Below are positions 2,585-34,904 of a stretch of DNA of 45,028 bases, piece by piece. Both the position numbers and the translations under genes were made by a program. Below the pieces are notes generated by a model that was given only the letters and a program-made list of their open reading frames with translations, was not told the DNA's origin and searched no databases. Numbering within the stretch: the first letter of the stretch is position 1; each line of letters opens with the position of its first letter. The DNA comes from an uncultured Micrococcales bacterium (GTDB taxonomy: Bacteria > Actinomycetota > Actinomycetes > Actinomycetales > Microbacteriaceae), in NCBI GenBank assembly GCA_903834635.1, contig CAILJO010000109.1, forward strand, positions 1 to 45,028, given 5' to 3'.

Positions 2585-3094
2585 CTAATCTTCCTTAAGC
2601 TTCTGAAGTGCATTCCACCTCGGGTCGATCGGGGCTTCGTGCATGTGTTGCGCTTCGTCCAAAATCTTCTCTCCGCAAGTCGCGCAAAGACCTAAACAAT
2701 CTTCGTTGCAAACAGGTTGGAAAGGGAGACTCAAAACTACCGCGTCTCGGATGACTTGTTCGAGATCGATTTGCTCGTTCTCTACGGTGAAGTCATCTTC
2801 ACTCGTTCCAGAATAGGCGAAAAGTTCCTGAAAATCCACCTCAAGCTCGCCCTTAATCGGGTCGAGGCAACGACCGCACTCCCCTTTAGCCTCACCAAAC
2901 ACTTCGCCGGACACATAAATACCTTCGTGAACCGACTCCAGCTTGAGGTCAATTTCAAGTTTTTCTCCGGACGGAACACCGATTGCATAGTTAGCTAAAG
3001 GCTCTTCGGTGATCACGTTCAGCTCGGCCTTGCGCATTGAACCTGGTTTGTTGATCAAGTCGTGCACAGGCACCAAATATTGTCCGCTTTTCAC
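2585..3094 (-). CDS. YceD/DUF177 family protein
   Basis: A conserved bacterial protein almost always encoded just before rpmF. In other organisms the family is linked to large-subunit rRNA/ribosome biogenesis, but the biochemical role here is not shown by sequence. Visible motifs are [20 protein letters not shown] in the middle and a C-terminal cysteine cluster [14 protein letters not shown] that resembles a metal-binding knot. The length of 169 aa is normal. The start is GTG, immediately after the coaD stop (TAAGTG) with no gap, which suggests coupled translation. Confidence 0.92.
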
Positions 3095-3592
3095 TTAGCG
3101 CCTTTCGAACTTTGTTTTTAGAGCGCTCGCAACAGAGGCGGGCACATATTTGCTCACATCTGCACCCAAAGCGGCGACTTGTCGAACCAGCGACGACGAA
3201 ATCTGTGCCAGCTCGGGTGCCGCTGGCAAAAGCATGGTTTCAACGGCCGAGAGGTCACGGTTCACGGTAGCCATAGCAAACTCGTATTCAGCGTCGGCAC
3301 CGTTGCGAACACCCTTGACAATGATTTTGGCGCCGATCTCTAGGCAGCGCTCCACCAGCAGTCCTTCGGCCAACACGTCGAAGTGCAACGCATCCTGGTT
3401 GATTTCGGCTTGGATAAGGCTCTGGCGAATCAGCTCAATTCGAGTCTGGGCATCGAAGGCGGCTTCTTTGTGAGGGTTATGAACTACCATCACCGTAAGT
3501 TCACCAAACATGGCTAGCGCGCGCTTGGCGACATCAAGATGACCAAGCGTGAAGGGGTCGAATGAACCTGGATACACGACGTGAATTGGCAT
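3095..3592 (-). CDS. coaD: Phosphopantetheine adenylyltransferase
   Basis: Catalyses the fourth step of coenzyme A synthesis, ATP plus 4'-phosphopantetheine to dephospho-CoA and pyrophosphate, in the cytoplasm. The nucleotidyltransferase start VVYPGSFDPFTLGH contains the T/HxGH motif (residues 15-18). The C-terminal ISSSLVR motif is also present, with the adenine-binding region VKGVRNGADAEYE between. The length of 165 aa is typical. It is 17 nt downstream of recG and abuts the DUF177 gene, forming one minus-strand transcription unit. Confidence 0.97.
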   Translation of the reverse strand: MPIHVVYPGSFDPFTLGHLDVAKRALAMFGELTVMVVHNPHKEAAFDAQTRIELIRQSLIQAEINQDALHFDVLAEGLLVERCLEIGAKIIVKGVRNGADAEYEFAMATVNRDLSAVETMLLPAAPELAQISSSLVRQVAALGADVSKYVPASVASALKTKFERR

Positions 3593-9251: not shown

Positions 9252-10382
9252 TTAGCGGTGTCCGCTGGCGCTGCGACGCCAAGAACCGGGGCGCAGCCTT
9301 GGGAAAGCCATGATCACGAAACAGCTGATTAACGAGCCATAGACCCACCATTGACCGTTCGTGTTTCCTGCGATGACAACATCACCGTCGTTAGATTTAC
9401 TCCCCAGCCACAGCAAAGTTGCGGCAAATGTGAGCGACATCAAATAGAGCGCTCCCCTGCTTTCGCGAAGCAATCGCAGAGCAAGTGCGAGCGAAACAAC
9501 CAAAGCAAGCGCCACCATCAAACCGATTGGAGTTTTGTTTGCATCGGCTGCATGAATATCGTGAAGCATGGTGCCAGCAACGGCCATCAAAACACCGAGC
9601 GGCAAAGACCAGAGCCCAAGGATGATCGGCTTCAGCACCATCCAAGGTTTGATGCTAGAAAGGCGCAAGCGTTCTGGGCGGTCGTAACGGACTTCTTTGC
9701 CGTTGACGATCGAATAAGTTTCTGCGTGCACCGCAATCTGCGATGCGTGGGCTTCGAGTGCCGCTTTCTTGATCTTTGCCGTCGACTCGTCACCGATGGC
9801 GACGTCAAAACGTTCACGAGATTCGGCGATCACCCAAAACTTGGGGCCACGGCCGCGTCGCTCTTTGGTATAGCGACGAAGAGCCATAGCCGACGCTTCA
9901 TGGGCGCGCTTGTGGTCTGGGTGCCCAAAGCCACCTTTGCGGTTGTATGTAACAACGGTGTCTGGCTTGAATTCGCGAAGCACTCCATAAATGTCTTCAC
10001 TGATGACTGCCGTCGAGACAGCACTCAGAGCCATTTCGTCAACCTGCTTTGGCTTGCCGGCGCGACCCCAACTGTTGATCTTGAAGCCGGTGTCGAGATA
10101 GGCGCGTGTTCCAGCAAATTTGTGTTGAGTGACCCCGAGAGCCGCTAGTGCGTTCTTAAGTTCGGCAGCACGAAATGCCCCAACGGCCGCAAGGTTACCT
10201 TCAAGACCCTTTAGCTCTTCAAGCTTCATTCGGCCGCGTTCACCTCGAGTTAGTGTCAGCACGAAGACTTCGGCACCCGAGGCGACTGCCTTGGCAATAA
10301 CGTGTGCAGTGAAAAGGCTCTCGTCATCCGGGTGAGCGTGAACCAAGAGCAAGCGCTTGGGGGCGAAAATCGGTTTAGCCAT
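9252..10382 (-). CDS. MshB/Mca-like PIG-L deacetylase fused to a four-segment membrane domain
   Basis: Residues 1-245 form a PIG-L (LmbE-like) zinc deacetylase. The HAHPDDES motif (15-22) gives His/Asp ligands and the catalytic Asp, and GFGHPDHKRAH (151-161) gives the third zinc His. In Actinobacteria the family contains MshB (GlcNAc-Ins deacetylase of mycothiol synthesis) and Mca (mycothiol conjugate amidase). Residues 250-360 hold four hydrophobic segments (about 250-272, 284-303, 310-326, 344-360), followed by a basic tail. MshB in many Actinobacteria is a soluble enzyme of about 300 aa with a small membrane protein encoded next to it, so this may be a fusion of that pair. It is divergent from the FTR1 gene. 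The exact substrate is uncertain. Confidence 0.82.
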   Translation of the reverse strand: MAKPIFAPKRLLLVHAHPDDESLFTAHVIAKAVASGAEVFVLTLTRGERGRMKLEELKGLEGNLAAVGAFRAAELKNALAALGVTQHKFAGTRAYLDTGFKINSWGRAGKPKQVDEMALSAVSTAVISEDIYGVLREFKPDTVVTYNRKGGFGHPDHKRAHEASAMALRRYTKERRGRGPKFWVIAESRERFDVAIGDESTAKIKKAALEAHASQIAVHAETYSIVNGKEVRYDRPERLRLSSIKPWMVLKPIILGLWSLPLGVLMAVAGTMLHDIHAADANKTPIGLMVALALVVSLALALRLLRESRGALYLMSLTFAATLLWLGSKSNDGDVVIAGNTNGQWWVYGSLISCFVIMAFPRLRPGSWRRSASGHR

Positions 10383-10412
10383 ACCAATACTTTACGTGAG
10401 AGCTCATTTGTC

Positions 10413-10459
10413 TTGCCCGTTAGCGTGTCTTAACTTAGGCTTAGTTAGGTAACCCTAAC
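10413..10459 (+). promoter_or_regulatory. Candidate iron-responsive promoter/operator of the FTR1 gene
   Basis: A -35-like TTGCCC (10413-10418) and a -10-like TAGGCT (10436-10441) are 17 nt apart. Directly downstream, over the expected transcription start, is the inverted repeat GTTAGG-TAAC-CCTAAC (10444-10459), embedded in further TTAG repeats. The half-sites resemble those of DtxR/IdeR iron boxes, but the spacing differs from the consensus. The ATG follows 19 nt later. The operator role is inferred from this resemblance and from the iron permease downstream. Confidence 0.45.
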
Positions 10460-10478
10460 CAAACCAAGTCAGGTACAA

Positions 10479-11276
10479 ATGCTCGCCAACTTCATGATCG
10501 GCCTTCGCGAAGGCCTTGAAGCGGCATTGGTTATCGGCATCATCGTTGCCTACCTAAAAAAGCAAAATCGCATGAGCGACGCCCGCAAAGTATTGTGGGG
10601 CGTGGCCGCAGCAATCTTGGTTGCAGTTCTTTCGGGTCTAGTTCTTTCGGCCTTGGTTGCCGACGCCGAAGCCGGTACAAATCAAATAATCGGAGCCAGC
10701 GCTTCGGTGCTTGCCGTCATTTTTGTCACCTGGATGATCTTCTGGATGGCTCGTCACTCGAGAAGCCTGCCCTCGCAAATGCACGCCAAGCTGGCCGACG
10801 TTAGTTCGACGCTAGCCCTGATCGCCATCGGATTCTTTGCCGTTGTGCGCGAAGGAATCGAGACATCTATTTTTCTTTGGAGCTCAACCAACGCCGCCGG
10901 ACAAGGTTCGGTCAGCATTATCGGAGCAGTTCTAGGTTTGGCGACCTCAGCTGGCATCGGATACGCGATCTATCGCGGCAGCCTGAGACTCAACCTAAGA
11001 ACCTTCTTCTCAATAACCTCAGGTTTTTTGATTTTAGTTTCGGCAGGAATTTTGGCCTATGCGGTCAAAGAGCTAGAAGAGCTCGGATGGCTTCCATTTC
11101 TGCAGGCAACCACCTATGACGTTTCTTCGGTAGTTACCGAAGGGTCACCGCTCGAGATCTTCCTGAAGTCCACGCTGAGCTTCAACGCAGCCCCTACGCA
11201 GCTTCAAACACTCGTGTGGCTCGCCTATGCTCTGCCGGTTGCGTATCTGTATTACCGGCGCCCAAGCAAAAAATAG
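10479..11276 (+). CDS. FTR1 family iron permease
   Basis: A multi-pass inner-membrane permease for iron uptake of the Ftr1/EfeU family. Both signature REGxE motifs are present: GLREGLEAALVIG near the N-terminus and VVREGIETSIFLW near residue 127. About seven hydrophobic segments are seen. The length of 265 aa is normal for EfeU. Genes for the usual partners EfeO and EfeB, or a multicopper oxidase, are not adjacent. The ATG follows a weak CAGGT. A candidate iron box precedes it and a strong terminator follows. Confidence 0.93.
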   Translation: MLANFMIGLREGLEAALVIGIIVAYLKKQNRMSDARKVLWGVAAAILVAVLSGLVLSALVADAEAGTNQIIGASASVLAVIFVTWMIFWMARHSRSLPSQMHAKLADVSSTLALIAIGFFAVVREGIETSIFLWSSTNAAGQGSVSIIGAVLGLATSAGIGYAIYRGSLRLNLRTFFSITSGFLILVSAGILAYAVKELEELGWLPFLQATTYDVSSVVTEGSPLEIFLKSTLSFNAAPTQLQTLVWLAYALPVAYLYYRRPSKK

Positions 11277-25743: not shown

Positions 25744-26118
25744 TTAGCCTTCGTCGGTCAGGGCTGCATACTCGGCGTGCGAGAGCAACTGAGGAAGTTC
25801 GGTGAATCGAATCTTGATTAGCCAGCCAGCACCGAGTGCATCCTGGTTGATGAGTTCTGGAGAGTTCGTGACTGCGTCGTTGATCTCGACAACCTCACCG
25901 TTGACTGGTGCATAAAGCTCGCCGACGGACTTTGTCGATTCGATTTCTCCACAGATCTTCATGTAAACGGTCTGAGAGCCAACCTTTGGCAGGTCAACAT
26001 AAACCACGTCGCCAAGCTTGTCGGCCGCATACTCGGTGATTCCAACGGTTGCCACGTCTCCGTCGATCGAAAGCCACTCGTGCTCTTTTGTATAAAGAAG
26101 TGCATCTTTGTTTGTCAT
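25744..26118 (-). CDS. gcvH: Glycine cleavage system H protein
   Basis: The lipoylated shuttle protein of the glycine cleavage system. It starts with the family motif [23 protein letters not shown]. The lipoyl-attachment lysine lies in [20 protein letters not shown]. The length of 124 aa is normal. The ATG is preceded by AAGGAAAATC. It lies between gcvT (32 nt) and gcvP. Lipoate attachment enzymes are not in the window. Confidence 0.98.
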
Positions 26119-26150
26119 GATTTTCCTTGTCTTTTGCTTCTGTAACTTCG

Positions 26151-27257
26151 TTATTTTGCGCGTTTATAAAACGGTAGCGAAACAACGCGCATGATTTGGC
26201 GGCTGCCTCGAACATCGACCCAGATCTCGGTCTCGGGTTCGCTGAACTCGGACTGCACATAAGCCATCGCAACCGGATAACCAAGGGTCGGCGACAGGGC
26301 ACCAGAGGTGATGATACCGATTGATTGCTCGGATGTCTCCGACTCGAAAAGTTCATAGTCTGCACGTGCAGCGCGCTTGCCTTCACCGACTAGCCCGACT
26401 AGTCGCTTGGCTGGCTGATGCTCAGCAATGGCCGCGAGCGCCTTTGAGCCGACAAACTCGTGGTCGAGTCGAACCACGCGCGCGAAGCCGGCTTCAAATG
26501 GTGTGGTGTCGATGGTCATCTCGTGACCATACAGAGGCATGCCTGCCTCAAGTCTTAGAGTGTCACGAGCCGCATAACCCGCAGCGACCAAACCTCGGTC
26601 GGCGCCCTGGGCCAAAAGCGCTCTCCACACGCCAACGGCATCTTCGTTATTAACCAACAGTTCAAAACCGTCTTCGCCGGTATAGCCGGTGCGAGCAAAG
26701 AAAGCGTTTTTGCCCGCAACTGTTGAACTGTAAATCGAGTAATACTTCAGCGAGCCCAATGGAGCGTCGGTCAGATCTGCCAAAATTTCGACGGCCTTGG
26801 GTCCCTGGATTGCAATGAGCGAAAGGCGGTCGCTGGCATCTTCGACCCTGACCTCAAAACCTTCGGTGCCTGCGAACAGCGCATTGGCAACTGCGTGACG
26901 ATTGCCGGCATTCGAAATGATCAAGTACGAGTCTGTTGAAAATCGGTAGACAATCAAATCGTCAAGTACCTGACCTAGTTCGTTGCAGATCAACGAATAT
27001 TTGGCGCGGCCATCGGCGATCTCTGACGCCATGCCGACAAGGCTGTGATCTAGATAGGCAGCGGCATCTGGGCCATCGATGAAGAACTCGGCCATGTGAC
27101 TAATGTCGAAGACCCCAGCCGCCTCGCGAATCGCAGCGTGCTCGGCAAGATCTGAAGAATAGCGAACCGGCATCTGCCAGCCACCGAAGTCAGTAAACGC
27201 GGCACCGAGCGCAACATGTTCGTCATAAAGAGGGGTCTTAAGACCTGCATCGTTCAC
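26151..27257 (-). CDS. gcvT: Aminomethyltransferase (T protein of the glycine cleavage system)
   Basis: Transfers the methylene group from GcvH to tetrahydrofolate, releasing ammonia. The N-terminus [25 protein letters not shown] and the motifs [23 protein letters not shown] and [16 protein letters not shown] are diagnostic. The length of 368 aa is normal. The start is GTG with AGGAGA upstream. As first gene of the operon it is directly downstream of a tandem glycine riboswitch. Confidence 0.98.
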
Positions 27258-27295
27258 GGAGTTCTCCTAAAAAGTGCGGCAATGTGCCACACCAG

Positions 27296-27470
27296 AACTC
27301 CCCCTCTGTCTTCTTAGCCTGAGAGCTTCACCGGAAAACCGATTTTCACCTTGGGCGAGGTTTTGAAACCTACTTTTCAGAGTTACCTAGTCATGGCGGT
27401 TTGATCACCTGAGAGATTCTGGGGAGGATTGCTCCTTCGGTGCAGTACCTAAACTGCTCTCCCGCCACGC
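27296..27470 (-). promoter_or_regulatory. Tandem glycine riboswitch (gcvT leader)
   Basis: On the minus strand two glycine aptamers follow each other. The first (about 27468-27393) has GCGGGAGAGC, CCGAAGGAGCAA and CTCTCAGGT and closes with an ACCGCC strand pairing the first GGCGG. The second (about 27392-27298) has ACTCTGAAAAG, CCCAAGGTG, CTCTCAGG and the closing GACAGAGGGGGAG. The gcvT GTG follows about 40 nt later. In this class glycine binding normally switches the cleavage operon on. Confidence 0.93.
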
Positions 27471-27534
27471 TTCGAACGGCATTTTCAATTGTTACGACAA
27501 CAATACAAGGTCGACACAGGCAAACTGCTAATGT

Positions 27535-27656
27535 TGGCAAGCGATCCTCTTTTGGGTCGCACTATCTCCAACCTGTCAGGGGAAGTCGGTGAAAATCCGA
27601 CGCTGACCCGCAGCCGTAACCGAGAAATCGGAAGTCGGAATGCCTGACCGGAAAGT
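27535..27656 (+). promoter_or_regulatory. Cobalamin (B12) riboswitch
   Basis: The conserved core reads GGGGAAGTCGGTGAAAATCC, then GACGCTGACCCGCAGCCGTAA, then GGAAGTCGGAATGCCTGACC (all within 27576-27650). This order of conserved blocks, with the P3-P6 core and CCTGTCAGG/CCTGACCGG closing regions, is that of the adenosylcobalamin-type aptamer. Family members normally turn expression off when B12 is plentiful. It precedes an operon encoding two secreted proteins and an ECF transporter, which points to corrinoid import. Confidence 0.92.
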
Positions 27657-27659
27657 GAT

Positions 27660-27756
27660 GACTCCTTATTTACCGTCGAGGTCTACGGTCGGAGTCGATA
27701 GGGCGTTAGCCCCATCGCCTTCGCATCCAGATTTCGCAGACGCGAAAGGCTCTCGA
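27660..27756 (+). promoter_or_regulatory. Hairpin-rich expression platform of the cobalamin riboswitch
   Basis: Three nested or successive hairpins lie between aptamer and start codon. The first pairs GACTCC (27660-27665) with GGAGTC (27691-27696) around an inner ACCGT/ACGGT stem. The second is CGATAGGGC-GTTA-GCCCCATCG (27696-27717, one mismatch). The third is TTTCGC-AGAC-GCGAAA (27732-27747), whose right arm overlaps the ribosome binding site AAAGG, 7 nt before the ATG. No T run follows, so control of translation is more likely than termination. GGAGTC ends on the same base as the second hairpin starts, so the first two stems are almost mutually exclusive. Confidence 0.6.
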
Positions 27757-28731
27757 ATGAGAACCAACTCTGGTTTGCGCTCATCCGCAAAATCTATTGC
27801 AACCGTCGTTGCAGCAACTTTGGTGCTGGCGCTCAGCGCTTGTTCAAGCACGACCACCAACTATCCGCAGACCGCACATTTCTTGCAATCAAAATTCTCC
27901 GCCAAAGGCGTTGAGGGTTTCTCGGCAGGCGTGATCGACTATGGGTTCACACTCGAGGCTCTAACACAGCTTTTGGCTTCAGGCGCAGAACTGAACAGCC
28001 AGGTGAAACAAGCCGCGACCAACCTGTGGGCGCAATCGGCCCAGCCAACCTCTGGATACCTGCTTGACACTGAAACTCGCTCGGTCAAGCCTGGCTTAGC
28101 TGGCAAGGCGTTGGTTTTTGGAAAGGTTTATGCCAAGCAAGGCGACGCAACCTTCTTTGCTATCAAATCGGAACTCGAGTCTGAGGTATCAGCAAACGGC
28201 GAGCTTGATGGCTCAAACGGCAATGCCTTTGACTACGGGTGGGCAATTCTCGGCTTGACCGCTGCCGGAAGTTCTAAGGCCAGTATTTTGGCGACAAAAC
28301 TCTCGTCGCTTATTCGCGAAGATGGGGGCTTTGGTTCAGATTTGAGCGCTAGCACCACAAGCAGCTCTGCAGATGCGACTGGAATTGCCCTGATGGCATT
28401 TGCAGCGACCAAGGGCAAAGGCGACGCGACCCAAGAAACAACCAAAGATGTCGCCGCGGCAAGAGCGCTGGCTTGGTTGTCAAAAAACGCGTTAAAGGCT
28501 AACCATTTCGAAGCCTGGGGTGATGTCGACGTGAACGGAACCGAGTATGCAGCTATGGGGTTGGAGGCTCAATCTAAGAACATCAGCGCCTACCGGGCGT
28601 GGCTATCTGACCGCATCGCGAACGACGGCGGGCTAATAACGCCATGGTCTGGAAAAGCCGGAGATACGTTCGCAACGATTCAGGGCCTCTTGGTTCTCGA
28701 TGGTCGTAGTTACACAGATCTAGTCAAGTAA
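27757..28731 (+). CDS. Alpha/alpha-toroid lipoprotein, intrinsic factor/transcobalamin-like
   Basis: A 324-aa predicted lipoprotein; the signal peptide ends in LALSAC with Cys29 as lipidation site. The mature part contains helical-toroid repeats of the terpene cyclase/prenyltransferase-like type: DYGFTLEALTQLL (61-73), DYGWAILGLTAAG (159-171), DATGIALMAFAA (206-217), GTEYAAMGLEAQ (261-272) and GDTFATIQGLLVLDG (302-316). Short EDGGFGSD and NDGGLITP turns lie between them. Animal intrinsic factor and transcobalamin use the same fold to hold B12. The ATG at 27757 is chosen over 27640, which lies within the riboswitch; AAAGG precedes it. It overlaps the next gene by one base (TAATG). B12 binding is inferred from riboswitch, fold and neighbours. 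Confidence 0.8.
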   Translation: MRTNSGLRSSAKSIATVVAATLVLALSACSSTTTNYPQTAHFLQSKFSAKGVEGFSAGVIDYGFTLEALTQLLASGAELNSQVKQAATNLWAQSAQPTSGYLLDTETRSVKPGLAGKALVFGKVYAKQGDATFFAIKSELESEVSANGELDGSNGNAFDYGWAILGLTAAGSSKASILATKLSSLIREDGGFGSDLSASTTSSSADATGIALMAFAATKGKGDATQETTKDVAAARALAWLSKNALKANHFEAWGDVDVNGTEYAAMGLEAQSKNISAYRAWLSDRIANDGGLITPWSGKAGDTFATIQGLLVLDGRSYTDLVK

Positions 28732-29279
28732 TGCGCATATCGCTTCGGGCAGTTTTAGTCTCGCTGATTGCTTTGGTTGCAATCGGTGGGGCTTTCGCAA
28801 CGCTGCCCGAAGCGAAGCACCCTTCATCCTCGAATAAACCGTCAGCATCTTTCGTGCTTGGCAAAACCTATTGCCCCTTCGACTCGACTAGCGGTGTAAG
28901 CGAATTCATAGATTTTGGACCTGGCAAAAAGGTTGAAAGTTTTTGCGCCTTCAATTTTTCGGGCACCGGTTGGGACCTGATTTCTCGAGCGGCCAAGGTT
29001 GAAGGAACCCGTGATTATGAAGTTGGGTTTGTTTGCCGAATCGATGGATGGCCAACCAAAGATGCGCAAAACTGCCAAGACACCCCAACCTATGCTGAAG
29101 GGTCTTGGGCTTACTTCTTGAGCAACAAGAATGGTTCGTGGAGTTTTAGTGGCACGGGCTCAAGCATGCACAGGCCGGCTTGCGGAACGAGCGAGGCCTG
29201 GCTTTGGGTCGCTGGCGGACAAGACCCGACGCAGTCGTTGCCTTCGGTAAAACCGCGAGTATTCAAATGCGCCTCCTGA
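28731..29279 (+). CDS. Small secreted or anchored beta-domain protein, DUF4430/transcobalamin C-domain-like
   Basis: A 182-aa protein with an N-terminal hydrophobic segment (AVLVSLIALVAIGGAFA) that may be an anchor or an uncleaved signal. The rest has six cysteines, possibly three disulfides, and a C-terminal stretch WAYFLSNKNGSWSFSGTG followed by ACGTSEAWLWVAG. This resembles the W-Y...G-W-ys..G...G-W pattern of DUF4430, the small beta domain that caps B12 in transcobalamin and intrinsic factor. The resemblance is by eye. Translation is coupled to the upstream toroid gene (TAATG), and the end overlaps the EcfT gene by 13 nt. It could be the second half of a two-chain B12 receptor. Confidence 0.65.
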   Translation: MRISLRAVLVSLIALVAIGGAFATLPEAKHPSSSNKPSASFVLGKTYCPFDSTSGVSEFIDFGPGKKVESFCAFNFSGTGWDLISRAAKVEGTRDYEVGFVCRIDGWPTKDAQNCQDTPTYAEGSWAYFLSNKNGSWSFSGTGSSMHRPACGTSEAWLWVAGGQDPTQSLPSVKPRVFKCAS

Positions 29280-30238
29280 TCGCCAAACGCGCCGACGCCG
29301 TGCACCCTGGCAGCTGGTGGTTGCTCGGGCTTGCACTAGCTGTGGCGGCTGGTCTAACTTCTTCGATTTGGATAGCGCTAAGCATTTGCGTGTTCGCAGT
29401 CGCTGTGGCCCGATTGCTGCGCACCGATGCCCCTTGGGCACGCTCGCTCGGCTTTTATCTCACACTCGCCACCGGCATTGTGGTTTTGCGGCTCGGTTTT
29501 CGGGTGCTGTTCAACTCGGGGTTGGCAACCGAGAACATTGCCTTTCGTTTGAAAGACATCGAACTGAATCTTGGGTTTGGTCCAGGCGTTCACCTTTTGG
29601 GCTCAGTGTCTTGGTTGACGCTGCAATCGGCGATGCTTGACGGGCTTCGACTGGCAGCCATCGTGCTCTCTGTTGCTCTAGCAAACACGTTGGCTAACCC
29701 GCGAAAACTCTTAAGAGCGACGCCCGGAGCTCTTTACGAGGTTGCTACTGCAATTTCGGTCGCCATAAATCTTGCCCCTCAGCTAATAGAAAGTCTCAAC
29801 CGAGTTCGACGAGCAAGAAAGCTTCGAGGGCGAAGCAAAAAGATTGGCGCACTGGCCGGAACCATCATTCCCGTTCTTGAAGACACTCTTGACCGTTCGC
29901 TTTCGCTTGCAGCCAGCATGGATGCCCGCGGGTTCGGACGACGCGGAAGCCTGAGCTCGTATCAGCAAACCGCAACCAGAGTTCTCAGCCTGACCTCGCT
30001 GGCGGTCTTCGCAATCGGCATTTACCTGTTGTTTAGCGACCCGGCGCTCGCCATGTTGGCCGCCTCTGTTTTGGCACTCGGAGTGGCTGAGGTTTTGATT
30101 GTTGTAAAAATCTCTTCTCTGAAACACGTTCGAACCCGCTACTCAAGTCAAACGATTAACGCCCTTGATCTGGCCTTGTGGCTGGCTAGTGCCGCAGTGA
30201 TTGTTTTCTCAGTCTCAGGGTTTGGTGGTGTTCAGTGA
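29267..30238 (+). CDS. ECF transporter transmembrane component EcfT (CbiQ family)
   Basis: The membrane scaffold that couples ATP hydrolysis to toppling of the S component. About 323 aa with N-terminal membrane segments (WWLLGLALAVAAGLTSSIWIALS and following) and two further C-terminal segments. The coupling helices carry the two family motifs: RRARKLRGRSK and SMDARGFGRRG. The ATG at 29267 is preferred over 29180, since the upstream codons encode a polar stretch overlapping the previous gene. Its stop overlaps the GTG of the ATPase gene (GTGA). Confidence 0.92.
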   Translation: MRLLIAKRADAVHPGSWWLLGLALAVAAGLTSSIWIALSICVFAVAVARLLRTDAPWARSLGFYLTLATGIVVLRLGFRVLFNSGLATENIAFRLKDIELNLGFGPGVHLLGSVSWLTLQSAMLDGLRLAAIVLSVALANTLANPRKLLRATPGALYEVATAISVAINLAPQLIESLNRVRRARKLRGRSKKIGALAGTIIPVLEDTLDRSLSLAASMDARGFGRRGSLSSYQQTATRVLSLTSLAVFAIGIYLLFSDPALAMLAASVLALGVAEVLIVVKISSLKHVRTRYSSQTINALDLALWLASAAVIVFSVSGFGGVQ

Positions 30239-31809
30239 TCAAAATCAGCGATGTGTCATTTGGTTATTCAGGCACCGAAAACCAGGTTTTTCGTCGAGCA
30301 AACCTGCAGATTGGCTCGGGAGAATTTGTCTTGGTTTGCGGACCAACCGGCAGCGGCAAATCTACCTTCTTGAAGATTTTCAATGGGTTAGCGCCGCACT
30401 TCACCGCCGGAACCCTCAGCGGAACTATTCAGATCGACGGTCAAGACATTACCGGTCGGCAACCACACGAACTCGCGGGCCTTGTTGGCTATGTCAACCA
30501 GCAACCAGAAGGGTCATTTGTCGCCGACACCGTAGAAGACGAGATTGCATACTCACTCGAGCAGCTTGGCTTTGCTCCTAGCGAGATGCGCAAAAGAGTC
30601 GAGCATTTCGCAAACCTGTTGGGTGTGGACCGCATTTTGAAGCAAAACCTGATGTCGCTTTCTGGAGGACAACAGCAGCGCGTGGCCATCGCCTCGGCGT
30701 TGGCGGCAGGACAAAAAGTTCTCGTTCTCGATGAACCAACCTCTGCACTTGATCCCGCGGCTGCAGACGAAATCGTGGACCTGCTGATGAACCTCGCTCA
30801 CCAACAAGGCATAACTGTGCTGTTAGCCGAACACCGACTTGAGCGAGTTATTTCCAAGGCAGACGCCGTGATCGTCGTTAACGGCGACTCTTCAGTCAAC
30901 AAATTTTTACCCCGCGATGCATTCAAGGAGTACCGACTGGTTCCGCCAATTGTTGAACTGTCGCAAAAACTAGGATGGCAGCCTGCCGCCCTCGACCCTC
31001 AAGAGGCCGGCAACCGCAGCATCTCACCGAGCCAATGGGCAGCCAAAACCGAACCTAGCCTGGGTGAAACTTTGCTGAGCGCCGAAGGCATCGTCGTGAA
31101 TTATGGCGAGACGAAAGCAGTTCAAGGAATCTCACTGCAGGCACAGGCTGGCGAAGTTGTTGTTGTTATGGGTGAAAACGGTTCGGGCAAATCAAGCCTT
31201 ATTTGGGCGCTGCAAGGTATTGGTGACATGAAGTCTGGCCAGATTTCAACAGCTTGGGGTGACCCACGATCGATGAGCGACCAAAGGCGGTTAGAGGTAA
31301 TCGCACTGGTTCCACAGAAAGCAGCTGACCTGCTTTTCTTGAATACGCTTGCCGACGAACTCGCCGAAAGCGATCGAGTGGCAGGGGTCGCAGAGACGAC
31401 AACCGCGACGATTTTCGCTAAATTTGCTGGCCGCGTAGACCCAAAAATCCATCCACGAGACATGTCCGCCGGTCAACAACTTGCCTTGGTGCTTGCATTG
31501 CAGCTGGTCAAAGATGCATCGATTGTCTTGCTTGATGAACCAACCCGTGGGCTCGATTATGCGGCCAAGCACCGGCTGGCCGAGGTAATTGCTGAACTGC
31601 AGTCAGAAGGCAAGACACTAATTCTGGCTTCTCACGACATCGAGTTTGTAGCACTCGTCGCCAATCGAATAGTTGTTTTGCAGGACGGGCAAATTGTCAC
31701 TCAAGGTTCTCCTGCAGACATTCTGAGTCACGAAGGAAAACTTCCGACACAGGTCGCGGCCGCCCTTAGAACACCAGGACTAATTTCGGTGAGTCAGGTG
31801 CTCTCTTGA
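30235..31809 (+). CDS. ECF transporter ATPase, fused EcfA-EcfA'
   Basis: Two ABC ATPase domains in one 524-aa chain. Domain 1: Walker A GPTGSGKST (36-44), Q-loop QQPEGSF, LSGGQQQRVAIASAL (142-156), DEPTSALD. Domain 2: Walker A GENGSGKSS (near 313), signature MSAGQQLALVLAL (near 410; SAGQ instead of SGGQ) and LLDEPTRGLD. Between them lies a linker of about 60 residues. Many ECF systems have two separate ATPases; the fused form is known in actinobacterial ECF loci. GTG start overlaps the EcfT stop; the end overlaps the S-component TTG start by 4 nt (TTGA). Confidence 0.94.
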   Translation: MIKISDVSFGYSGTENQVFRRANLQIGSGEFVLVCGPTGSGKSTFLKIFNGLAPHFTAGTLSGTIQIDGQDITGRQPHELAGLVGYVNQQPEGSFVADTVEDEIAYSLEQLGFAPSEMRKRVEHFANLLGVDRILKQNLMSLSGGQQQRVAIASALAAGQKVLVLDEPTSALDPAAADEIVDLLMNLAHQQGITVLLAEHRLERVISKADAVIVVNGDSSVNKFLPRDAFKEYRLVPPIVELSQKLGWQPAALDPQEAGNRSISPSQWAAKTEPSLGETLLSAEGIVVNYGETKAVQGISLQAQAGEVVVVMGENGSGKSSLIWALQGIGDMKSGQISTAWGDPRSMSDQRRLEVIALVPQKAADLLFLNTLADELAESDRVAGVAETTTATIFAKFAGRVDPKIHPRDMSAGQQLALVLALQLVKDASIVLLDEPTRGLDYAAKHRLAEVIAELQSEGKTLILASHDIEFVALVANRIVVLQDGQIVTQGSPADILSHEGKLPTQVAAALRTPGLISVSQVLS

Positions 31810-32567
31810 AATCAATTGTTTCGAAAATAACGGTCGGTTTTGCCGGGGTCATTAGCCTTCTAATGTTCATTTGGCCACTGCTGATTCCTGCAACCGCAAC
31901 AAATCAAGCGCATTTGGCACAAGGGATCTTTATCGGCCTAATGCCCGTGATTTTAGTTTTGGTGCTCGTTGAGTTTTCGAGCGGCAGCATTGGATCAAAA
32001 CAACTTGCTGTGCTGGGAGTTCTAATCGCGCTTAATGCGGTGGTTCGAGTTCTGGGAGCCGGAACCTCTGGCATCGAAACAGCGTTCTTCTTGATCATTC
32101 TTGGCGCTTATGTTTTCGGAAGCGGCTTTGGTTTTGTTTTGGGTTCAGCCTCTCTGCTGGTCAGTGCCCTTCTGACCGGAGGCATTGGGCCATGGTTGCC
32201 GTTTCAGATGATGGCTGCAGGCTTGGTTGGACTTGGTGCAGGCACGCTGCCAAAGTTTGACAGTCGATGGCTCAAACTGGCTACGCTTTCGATTTATGCC
32301 ATGGTGGCAGCATTCGTATATGGTTCGCTGATGACAATGTGGAACTGGCCATTCTTAGCCGGGTCCGGGGGCGGGCTTGGATATTCGGCAGGCGCTCCCA
32401 TCGCCGAGAACCTCACCCATTTTTTTCAATACGAATTGATCAGTGGCGGTTTTCTTTGGGATGCAGGACGAGCAGTCACCACAACCGTTTTGATCTGGTT
32501 AACGGCACCGGCCCTGCTAGCCACCCTGAAACGAGCGGCCGGCAGAGCCGGATTCGAAAAGAACTAG
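31806..32567 (+). CDS. ECF transporter S component (predicted corrinoid-specific)
   Basis: A 253-aa membrane protein with about seven hydrophobic segments, including ITVGFAGVISLLMFIWPLLI, AVLGVLIALNAVVRVLG, FGFVLGSASLLVSALLTGGIGPWLPFQMMAAGLVGLGAGTLP. The GxGP-WxPFQM stretch is common to ECF S components. Length is above the 170-210 aa of small vitamin S components. Specificity cannot be told from sequence alone; cobalamin or a precursor is inferred from the riboswitch and the transcobalamin-like neighbours. The start is TTG, coupled to the ATPase gene. It ends 3 nt before the stop of the convergent DoxX-like gene. Confidence 0.85.
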   Translation: MKSIVSKITVGFAGVISLLMFIWPLLIPATATNQAHLAQGIFIGLMPVILVLVLVEFSSGSIGSKQLAVLGVLIALNAVVRVLGAGTSGIETAFFLIILGAYVFGSGFGFVLGSASLLVSALLTGGIGPWLPFQMMAAGLVGLGAGTLPKFDSRWLKLATLSIYAMVAAFVYGSLMTMWNWPFLAGSGGGLGYSAGAPIAENLTHFFQYELISGGFLWDAGRAVTTTVLIWLTAPALLATLKRAAGRAGFEKN

Positions 32568-32570
32568 TCG

Positions 32571-32957
32571 TTAGATAAACGAGATGACAATCACGTCGGC
32601 GACAGCCAAGACGATTAGTCCGATGTTCATCTTCCAGGTGTACTTGAACTCTCCACGAACGATGTGCATGATTGCTGCAACGATCATGGTCAGAGCCAAA
32701 CCAGCTGCTGCAGCTAGTCCAAGTGCCGTAGCCCAAGCCCAACCAAACAGCTGACCGGCAACTGGGCCTGCGACAACACCAATTGCGCCAAGGAGTTCGA
32801 GAAGACCGATTAGGCGAACTAGTGAAGAGCTAATCTGCTTGACCCAACCCAGACCTGCAGCGGCAAGGTCATCCATTGACTTGGTTAGCTTGTTTTTAGA
32901 TGCACCGAAGAAAACGAATGCAAGTAGGGCGCCTAGTACGAGGCTTACGTAGAACAT
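32571..32957 (-). CDS. DoxX-like small membrane protein
   Basis: A 128-aa protein with four hydrophobic segments: YVSLVLGALLAFVFFGASK, LVRLIGLLELLGAIGVVAG, ALGLAAAAGLALTMIVAAIMH and IGLIVLAVADVIVISFI. The GxxxRxxGxxELxGAxG pattern and later MIVAAIMHIVRGE are typical of DoxX-like proteins, whose roles range from thiosulfate metabolism to oxidative stress; none is shown here. The ATG has a strong AAGGAG at 5 nt. Its promoter is one half of the symmetric divergent promoter shared with the HicB/HTH-like gene. Confidence 0.85.
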   Translation of the reverse strand: MFYVSLVLGALLAFVFFGASKNKLTKSMDDLAAAGLGWVKQISSSLVRLIGLLELLGAIGVVAGPVAGQLFGWAWATALGLAAAAGLALTMIVAAIMHIVRGEFKYTWKMNIGLIVLAVADVIVISFI

Positions 32958-33521: not shown

Positions 33522-34472
33522 GTGGCGAAGCAAAGACTTGAGCACACAGTGAAGCGCATCATTGCTGCACTGGCGATTGGGTTGGTCTCACTCGCTCCCA
33601 ACATTTTGTCGGCGCACCGCAATTTGGAATCATCCTTAGATATTTATTCACAGGTGAATCAGTTCGGTGACGTGACTATCAAGTGGAACCCAACCGAATT
33701 CGTTAAGAAAAAGAACATCAAGCTAGCGATCGGGTATTACTTCGATCAAGAAGACCGACCAGGCGAACTAAAACCAAAACCTGTTGATGCCAGCGCAGGA
33801 AGCGCCTCGTTCAAAAATTTGTCACTAAACGCAAGGTACCTTTTTTCGGTCTCTATAACCCAGGGAAACAGAGATACGTTCACGAAGCGGCTATTGGTTG
33901 TGACACCAAACCCAAACCGACCGATAACTAAAGACTCTGCAGTGAATGCTCAATTGAGCTATGTAGACGCACACTGGCGAACTCGGGAAAACCCAAACTA
34001 TCTCTATATTCCAGATTTCGATTGCGCCAACTTTGTCAGTCAGACGCTGGTAGCCAGGGGTTTCCGGCAGAACTATCGATGGAATCAAATTAAGAGTGTT
34101 CCAACTCATGCATTTATTAGTTCAACCGCTTTAAAGGCTTACCTGCTGACACTGCCTGGTGTTCACGAAGTCTCGTCGCTGTCGCCAAACAAGGTCAAAC
34201 TCGGGGATATCGCAATGTTTGACTGGGATCGCTCGGGTGACACTGACCACGTAGGAATAGTGAACTACATTCAAAGACGACCCGACGGAAGCCTGAAAAT
34301 CTACATCGCTCAGCACACGATGCACAGATACTTTAGGTCGGTGTCTTGGGCCGTTCAGGTGAATCATCCAAACGCCAACTATTCGTTCATAAGCCTTCCA
34401 ACTGCACCTACCGATTTTTCGTGGCCAGCCACCTTTGACACCAGCGGGCTGGATCGTTGGTCGGTCAGATAA
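33522..34472 (+). CDS. Secreted amidase-domain protein (Amidase_6-like, putative Cys hydrolase)
   Basis: A predicted secreted enzyme. A hydrophobic signal (IIAALAIGLVSLAPNILSA) is followed by a beta-rich, FnIII-like region (about 38-128). A C-terminal domain of about 165 residues has the NlpC/CHAP-like pattern DFDCANFVSQTL (Cys168) and GDIAMFDWDRSGDTDHVGIV (His243), as in the Amidase_6 family, so a cell-wall or peptide amidase is likely. GTG at 33522 gives 316 aa; a second GTG at 33549 would give a tighter signal peptide and may be the real start. The stretch appears more A+T-rich than its neighbours, which may indicate transfer. A terminator follows. Confidence 0.78.
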   Translation: MAKQRLEHTVKRIIAALAIGLVSLAPNILSAHRNLESSLDIYSQVNQFGDVTIKWNPTEFVKKKNIKLAIGYYFDQEDRPGELKPKPVDASAGSASFKNLSLNARYLFSVSITQGNRDTFTKRLLVVTPNPNRPITKDSAVNAQLSYVDAHWRTRENPNYLYIPDFDCANFVSQTLVARGFRQNYRWNQIKSVPTHAFISSTALKAYLLTLPGVHEVSSLSPNKVKLGDIAMFDWDRSGDTDHVGIVNYIQRRPDGSLKIYIAQHTMHRYFRSVSWAVQVNHPNANYSFISLPTAPTDFSWPATFDTSGLDRWSVR

Positions 34473-34503: not shown

Positions 34504-34539
34504 TAAACGGGATGTCGACGACGCCGAAACGTCGCTTTG

Positions 34540-34904
34540 TGGAGATGGGGGGAATTGAACCCCCGTCCAGAGCATAGTTTCTGACTCTTCTACGGGTGTA
34601 GCTTCAGTATCGTTTTGCTCGATCCTGACCATACCCTGAAGCGAGTTGATCAACAGACCCAGTCCTAGTTCAAGTCCCGCGCAGCCCTAAGGCATAACTG
34701 CACAGCAAGATTCCTAGATGACGCCAGTACCCGCAACGGAATCACATGCGGACTGACGGACTTCAGGCTCGCTTAAGCAGCGAGGGCGAAGTCGGTGCGG
34801 TTAGATTTGGCACCTATAGTTTGCAGCGGACATTTACGTGTTGACGCTACATTCACGACCCGCTTCTTTCAGGCACAGTGGCACTGTCGAAACCGATCAT
34901 CCCC
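34540..34904 (-). ncRNA. ssrA: Transfer-messenger RNA (tmRNA)
   Basis: Rescues stalled ribosomes by trans-translation with SmpB. The 5' end GGGGATGATC pairs with the 3' end CATCTCC as a 7-bp acceptor stem (one G-U), and the T arm GGGGGTTCAATTCCCCC is present. The tag frame (34811-34773) encodes AKSNRTDFALAA followed by TAA, typical of Actinobacteria. CCA is not encoded: the acceptor end reads A-CAA, so it must be added by the CCA enzyme. The length is about 365 nt. smpB lies upstream in the same direction with one GNAT gene between. Confidence 0.96.

Follow-up and report, generated by a model that had tools for sequence, protein, structure and literature searches.

Why should the genes of an energy-coupling factor (ECF) importer lie in one operon with genes for two secreted proteins? 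The locus that raises this question is carried by a 45,028-nucleotide stretch (positions 1–45,028 of contig CAILJO010000109.1, assembly GCA_903834635.1) of an uncultured Micrococcales bacterium of the Microbacteriaceae, the whole of which we call the window. On its forward strand, a vitamin B12 (cobalamin) riboswitch precedes five overlapping genes, the first two of which encode the secreted proteins and the last three the importer. We consider it very likely that this operon is the cobalamin uptake system of a B12 auxotroph, in which the ECF importer is fed by a surface receptor resembling transcobalamin split into two proteins. The features are listed below, with gene starts refined by reading of the sequence.

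27537–27665, + strand: cobalamin riboswitch aptamer (RF00174; cmscan 47.1 bits, gathering threshold 31.5)
27660–27696, + strand: hairpin directly after the aptamer core (GACUCC ... GGAGUC), read from the sequence
27732–27747, + strand: short hairpin TTTCGC-AGAC-GCGAAAGG, predicted by leader folding, which partly covers the first gene's Shine-Dalgarno sequence
27757–28731, + strand, ATG start: alpha/alpha-toroid lipoprotein, predicted counterpart of the transcobalamin alpha domain (AlphaFold2 model and Foldseek)
28731–29279, + strand, ATG start: small secreted six-cysteine protein, predicted beta-grasp (AlphaFold2 model, Foldseek and profile-profile comparison)
29267–30238, + strand, ATG start: EcfT transmembrane component (PF02361, 31.6 bits, cut-off 25; run from 29270)
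30235–31809, + strand, GTG start: fused EcfA-A′ ATPase (two PF00005 stretches)
31806–32567, + strand, TTG start: ECF S component (PF12822, 32.7 bits, cut-off 30.7)

The riboswitch, the importer genes and the host

The B12 riboswitch named in the initial annotation of this DNA passed the cobalamin model over its full length (E value of 7.8e-9, with the score above the Rfam gathering threshold), and this aptamer was the one RF00174 match found in the genome. The five genes behind it are likewise as first described, with consecutive overlaps of 1, 13, 4 and 4 nucleotides. Three of them form a dedicated (group I) ECF set, in which EcfT, EcfA/A′ and the S component are encoded in adjacent overlapping genes and pass their Pfam cut-offs; against the ECF ATPase models the fused ATPase scored 291.8 and 291.0 bits, below the equivalog cut-offs of 315 and 330.

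The sequence of the S component does not by itself assign it to a vitamin. No other named vitamin family came above its cut-off (the folT family gave 22.8 bits against 60), but neither Pfam nor NCBIfam yielded a match to a cobalamin S component, and an S-component profile matched zero PDB chains at an E value of 10. We therefore infer cobalamin as the substrate, and a CbrT-like role, from the riboswitch and the gene neighborhood rather than from the S sequence. Uptake of cobalt was considered and rejected, as PF12822 was the sole Pfam family to match the S component at an E value of 1, and CobS was not found in the genome.

The rest of the genome (1.49 Mb in 147 contigs, 93.7% complete) suggests why this host would import the vitamin. 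It encodes the B12-dependent methionine synthase MetH, in which the single TAA counted proved to be the normal stop codon that closes the gene, and the B12-dependent class II ribonucleotide reductase NrdJ. Searches of the same 93.7%-complete assembly for CobS, for methylmalonyl-CoA mutase and for MetE found none of the three. Because MetH and NrdJ are present and these others were not found, the host is predicted to be a B12 auxotroph, which requires cobalamin and seems unable to complete its synthesis.

The same observations bear on whether the substrate might instead be a corrinoid precursor or another cobamide (cobinamide, pseudo-B12 or a lower-ligand base). Transporters of precursors also stand under B12 riboswitches, which favors that idea, but CobS is needed to finish the salvage of cobinamide to a cobamide, and because it was not found in the 93.7%-complete assembly a precursor alone would seem to be of little use to this cell. 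On balance we regard import of a precursor as improbable, even with the precedent of the ECF-CbrT importer of Lactobacillus delbrueckii, which transports both cobalamin and cobinamide and whose S component is itself the binding protein (PMC5997447).

How the riboswitch might act is suggested by the leader. When the 239-nucleotide leader was folded, its z score was -2.52 and 4 of 200 shuffled sequences folded as well; the short hairpin at 27732–27747 arises from this fold, and a short hairpin at the Shine-Dalgarno sequence or start codon was also seen in six of six relatives folded, these without a shuffle control. Because such a hairpin occurs in the window and in its relatives, it is likely the off-switch, and control would be exerted on translation. 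The hairpin directly after the aptamer core has a loop sequence shared by relatives, similar sequence following the aptamer in each of six compared.

Predicted folds of the two secreted proteins

Judged by its predicted structure and by profile comparison, the small protein is the counterpart of the beta domain of transcobalamin and intrinsic factor and a distant relative of the SCO2322 and DUF4430 families. Its AlphaFold2 model was confident (predicted local distance difference test (pLDDT) 88.7, predicted template-modeling score (pTM) 0.77), and the PDB chains that Foldseek ranked 1–16 against it, with E values of 0.02–0.34, all belonged to the transcobalamin superfamily: transcobalamin, its isolated beta domain, intrinsic factor, haptocorrin, and 3u7z, which is titled a putative metal-binding protein and which we take to be a DUF4430-type protein. 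Among the structures matched, 5np4 by its title shows cyanocobalamin bound to an isolated human beta domain. In the model, a helix (80–87) is followed by a beta hairpin (90–92/101–104) and strands at 125–131, 137–139 and 154–160, and we read the hairpin after the helix as the predicted equivalent of the insert that defines the transcobalamin-like clade (clade definition in PMC1796856).

The conservation of the family and its profile comparisons can be set beside the model. In the mature protein, cysteines 48, 72, 102 and 115 are kept in 50–51 of 53 aligned proteins and cysteines 151 and 180 in 13 of the 53, and of the two glycines that the superfamily conserves, after strand 2 and before strand 3, one site, as we place them, is Gly80 in the window protein (glycine in 39 of 53). 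An hhalign comparison of the small-protein profile with a DUF4430 profile, built from 29 of 30 loci in the window's phylum, gave a probability of 83%, or 53.8% when trimmed, whereas 60 column-shuffled profiles gave at most 1.8% and the S-component and toroid profiles, used as controls, gave 0.1–0.8%. The small protein also scored in the NCBIfam SCO2322 family (NF040672), with 22.7 bits, but did not reach the cut-off of 85; the name of that model indicates no function. The initial description of the protein as DUF4430-type is thus favored by fold, topology and profile-profile comparison, although Pfam itself does not call it.

The toroid lipoprotein also gave a confident AlphaFold2 model (pLDDT 92.7, pTM 0.88). 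Its Foldseek matches included bovine transcobalamin (2bb6_A, 5.4e-6), transcobalamin 2v3n (2.4e-6; template-modeling score of 0.56 by query length) and terpene cyclase 8zgv (2.1e-6). We read a signal sequence by eye and the lipobox LSAC from the sequence. The folds predicted for both secreted proteins therefore match the two halves of transcobalamin, and together with the riboswitch match they lend support to the initial proposal of an ECF importer with a two-part transcobalamin-like receptor.

Sequence searches with the toroid were less productive. Neither PF01122 (Cobalamin_bind) nor any other Pfam family matched the window protein at an E value of 1, and PF01122 matched 5 of 64 aligned toroids at an E value of 0.1 or better (best 0.0023). 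A PDB search with the single toroid sequence returned a globin alone, which we judged to be a chance match. When 119 order-level genomes were searched with the window toroid, there were three matches, itself counted. One of the others (L003) was dropped because it falls in a frame that looks sortase-like by eye. In a bacterium of the same order, L002 (positions 895–2190 on the minus strand) is a secreted toroid with a C-terminal end that looks membrane-like by eye, and it had no Rfam match within the 3.7 kb examined.

Recurrence of the gene set and fusions of the secreted proteins

To assemble comparable loci we scanned with 17 aligned S components and kept the best 80 of 583 confirmed loci, which made 81 records with the window, many of them cut by contig ends. 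Iterated profiles served for the toroid, found in 55 records, and for the small protein, found in 69; single-sequence searches found the S component in all 81, the ATPase in 80, and EcfT in 75. Upstream counts are based on the 65 records with at least 2.5 kb before EcfT. In 64 of these the small gene lies upstream of EcfT; the toroid is present in 52, and in 47 of the 52 it is also upstream of EcfT.

The closest loci among the matches listed came from 16 metagenome-assembled genomes (L064–L079) with S components 58–68% identical to that of the window, three of them named Rhodoluna and the rest Micrococcales, Microbacteriaceae, Actinomycetales or Actinomycetota; their isolate names suggest a freshwater origin. 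Ten of the 16 have all five genes in the order of the window, and the remaining six are missing genes where the contig breaks off. In another near relative (L101, 5248–8076), the riboswitch lies directly before the small gene, no toroid is present at the locus, and the EcfT and ATPase matches are fragmentary. More widely, S homologues were found in 158 of the 296 genomes of the window's class at an E value of 1e-10 and SCO2322 members in 116 at 1e-4 (102 over the family cut-off), these being separate tallies; in one genome taken as an example (G203), a SCO2322 member lies ~3.5 kb before the S gene.

For the riboswitch, we built a covariance model on the window and on six of the nine records scanned with Rfam, seven sequences in all (five of the six matched by RF00174 and one, L065, by the related adenosylcobalamin (AdoCbl) family). 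The model found 84 matches in 60 of the 81 records, and 73 of the 84 lay within 1 kb upstream, on the same strand, of a toroid (53), small (19) or EcfT (1) gene, with 11 placed otherwise. A riboswitch stands before the main operon in 57 of the 65 records, or in 50 of 58 once the seven training records are removed; in L137 it stands only before a separate fused gene. The neighborhood survey thus shows the gene set co-occurring with B12 riboswitches, and because the same genes and the same riboswitch recur together in other actinobacteria the arrangement is not a product of chance.

In five records the toroid and the small protein are joined in one open frame, in both orders. The small domain comes first in L137 (Actinomadura hibisca) and L084 (Crossiella) and the toroid first in L103 and L114, the latter with a membrane-like stretch between the domains, and L180 has a small-toroid-toroid arrangement (gene start unchecked). 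The fusion of L137 is located separately, on the opposite strand, and has a riboswitch to itself (9977–10109, minus strand). Toroid genes outside the main operon, each behind a B12 riboswitch of its own, were seen in L085, L086, L088, L095, L097, L109 and L110, for example, as well as in the L137 fusion.

The L177 operon runs small-T-A-S-toroid-DUF4430, and its last protein passes the Pfam cut-off. This DUF4430 protein (9936–10637) stands beside the toroid, so two different beta-grasp proteins occur in one locus. In L177–L180 the covariance model placed riboswitches before the operon in L177 and L178, before the toroid in L179, and none in L180. The strongest Rfam match in these four loci, a cobalamin riboswitch in L177 (91.6 bits; 3075–3268, minus strand), faces the other way, and some gene outside the operon is thus probably under B12 control.

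Divergent from the window operon is an ordinary glycine-cleavage operon (25744–27474, minus strand), in which a glycine riboswitch (27387–27474, 61 bits) is followed by gcvT and gcvH. A DoxX-like membrane protein (32571–32957, minus strand) is convergent with the S gene, and farther downstream are a putative amidase domain protein (PF12671, 64 bits; 33522–34472, plus strand) and a tmRNA gene (138.6 bits; 34537–34904, minus strand). L067, L068 and L069 likewise have a tmRNA gene downstream of the operon.

Weighing a proposed two-part receptor against its alternatives and precedents

Several results count against a transcobalamin-like receptor that feeds the importer. With the small-protein model, Foldseek gave no match at an E value of 0.001 (best 0.02); Pfam DUF4430 misses the window protein, which matches no Pfam family at an E value of 1, and appears in 1 of the 53 aligned proteins (E value of 0.0027); and position 88, if rightly placed as a superfamily glycine, is alanine in the window and glycine in 48 of 53. 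The toroid fold appears to suit transcobalamin without being specific for it, because terpene cyclases match nearly equally well, and the toroid family profile retrieved squalene cyclases from the PDB but no transcobalamin at an E value of 10. Nor is a lipid anchor general: the initial annotation's anchored toroid stands for the window protein, but a lipobox occurs in 6 of the 11 toroids of near relatives, the window counted, and some genomes have no toroid. Of the nine records scanned with Rfam, three (L067, L082 and L113) did not reach the cut-offs; 7 of the 65 records (L087, L100, L106, L111, L115, L117 and L140) had no riboswitch match; and among L177–L180 Rfam found a riboswitch before the operon in L178 alone. 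The absences of CobS, the mutase and MetE depend on an incomplete assembly, and the case as a whole is built on sequence and predicted structure, from which we infer binding and transport.

The cyclase matches raise the alternative that the toroid is a terpene-cyclase or prenyltransferase-type enzyme that merely shares the operon, for which it can be said that the best matches in both sequence and fold include squalene and drimenyl-diphosphate cyclases. The catalytic motif of class II cyclases, DxDD, is nonetheless present in only 3 of 64 aligned toroids and absent from that of the window, which has a signal sequence; moreover, the largest share of riboswitch matches precedes toroid genes, and five records place the toroid in one frame with a beta-grasp domain. 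An enzyme is therefore highly improbable.

Of the 65 records, 13 contain no toroid in the stretch of DNA examined. When 12 of the 13 (L101 was left out) were searched genome-wide, five had a toroid elsewhere and seven had none at an E value of 1e-15, six of the seven being Amycolatopsis. Because these seven genomes showed no toroid elsewhere, the small protein may be the half that the system cannot do without, and the toroid would probably enclose the ligand. The structure of a lone beta domain with cyanocobalamin fits such lineages, in which the small gene persists and no toroid was found. The same genomes, and the toroids that lack a lipobox, can also be cited for an arrangement in which the S component alone imports cobalamin, as in ECF-CbrT, where it binds the substrate itself (PMC5997447), and the secreted proteins are accessory scavengers that increase B12 locally without docking on the importer. 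We hold this arrangement to be unlikely, though the strongest of the alternatives, since the nearly invariant position of the small gene upstream of EcfT argues for a physical role.

An uptake system of this kind has been predicted before, mainly for low-GC Gram-positives. Burroughs et al. (2007) joined the transcobalamin beta-grasp domain with bacterial proteins and described toroid/beta-grasp fusions in both orders, as well as operons that hold a pair of beta-grasp proteins, together with genes for a CbiO-like ATPase and a CbiQ-like permease, in organisms that usually lack key B12 synthesis enzymes and were predicted to scavenge B12 (PMC1796856). Reading this CbiO and CbiQ as ECF A/T-like, we see in the window the same secreted toroid and beta-grasp proteins beside an ATPase and permease, in a host of the same kind, but with a small protein that in actinobacteria is too divergent for Pfam DUF4430. 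In the parts of that paper available, the lineages given for the clade are low-GC Gram-positives, planctomycetes and euryarchaea; actinobacteria are named for ComEA only, one Mycobacterium appears among the figure abbreviations without a clade, and the main text nowhere uses the terms 'riboswitch', 'S component' or 'Streptomyces'. The initial statement that no mechanism had been described thus needs amending, as the prediction was already in print. For the actinobacterial operon, searches of the open PMC literature, which omits most subscription papers, listed no title or abstract opening that describes it and no experimental study of it. What is new here is the actinobacterial branch, in which the two halves have separate genes, a riboswitch precedes them and the S component is a dedicated one; this branch extends the 2007 prediction.

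The animal carriers transcobalamin, intrinsic factor and haptocorrin have the alpha/alpha toroid and the beta-grasp domain with a hairpin insert that are predicted here; unlike them, the window has two separate proteins, one with a lipobox, beside an ABC-type importer. Neither the small-protein nor the toroid profile gave a direct sequence match to these carriers in PDB searches, and the small-protein profile had zero matches of any kind there. BtuG and BtuH of Bacteroidetes have unrelated folds and belong to an outer-membrane TonB system. They too are surface proteins that capture B12 for an importer (PMC6143338, PMC8941943).

ECF-CbrT is an ECF importer with a cobalamin S component, as we suppose the window importer to be, and it differs in using one ECF module common to several S components, with a secreted receptor unmentioned in the parts available (PMC5997447). 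Cobalamin ECF systems were predicted by Rodionov et al. (2009, cited in PMC5997447), who may list the S components considered here. The window has by comparison a dedicated EcfT, EcfA-A′ and S component plus two putative receptors. CbrTUV is a named gene set. It appears for a Lactobacillus plasmid (PMC6722938), and cbrT and cbrV have been used as B12 transporter genes (PMC9306216).

If the operon does supply an importer with cobalamin through a two-part receptor, it might work as follows. At low cellular B12 the riboswitch would permit translation of the first gene, and that of the overlapping genes behind it would follow. Both putative receptor halves, the small beta-grasp protein and the lipoprotein with the toroid fold, would be exported and displayed outside the membrane, where they would hold cobalamin between them in the manner of transcobalamin's own two domains, the small protein in the place of the beta and the toroid in that of the alpha domain, or the small protein alone would hold it. 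Cobalamin would then be passed to the S component and carried inward by EcfT and the fused ATPase, with toppling of the S component and ATP hydrolysis, a mechanism known from other ECF members. Once inside it would serve MetH and NrdJ. In a stronger form of the proposal, which we advance tentatively and rate a little short of an even chance, the receptor is obligate: the split pair closes like a clamshell on cobalamin at the cell surface and docks on the S component, and the animal carriers are its fused relatives.

In the accepted view an S component itself serves as the substrate-binding protein, and a conserved external receptor would alter that view for cobalamin; if real, such a receptor could account for the capture of B12 by actinobacteria when its concentration is very low. 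The 2007 prediction in any case gains a large set of riboswitch-marked loci, many in named cultured strains, and these loci offer a way to study how toroid and beta-grasp domains cooperate and how they came to be fused.

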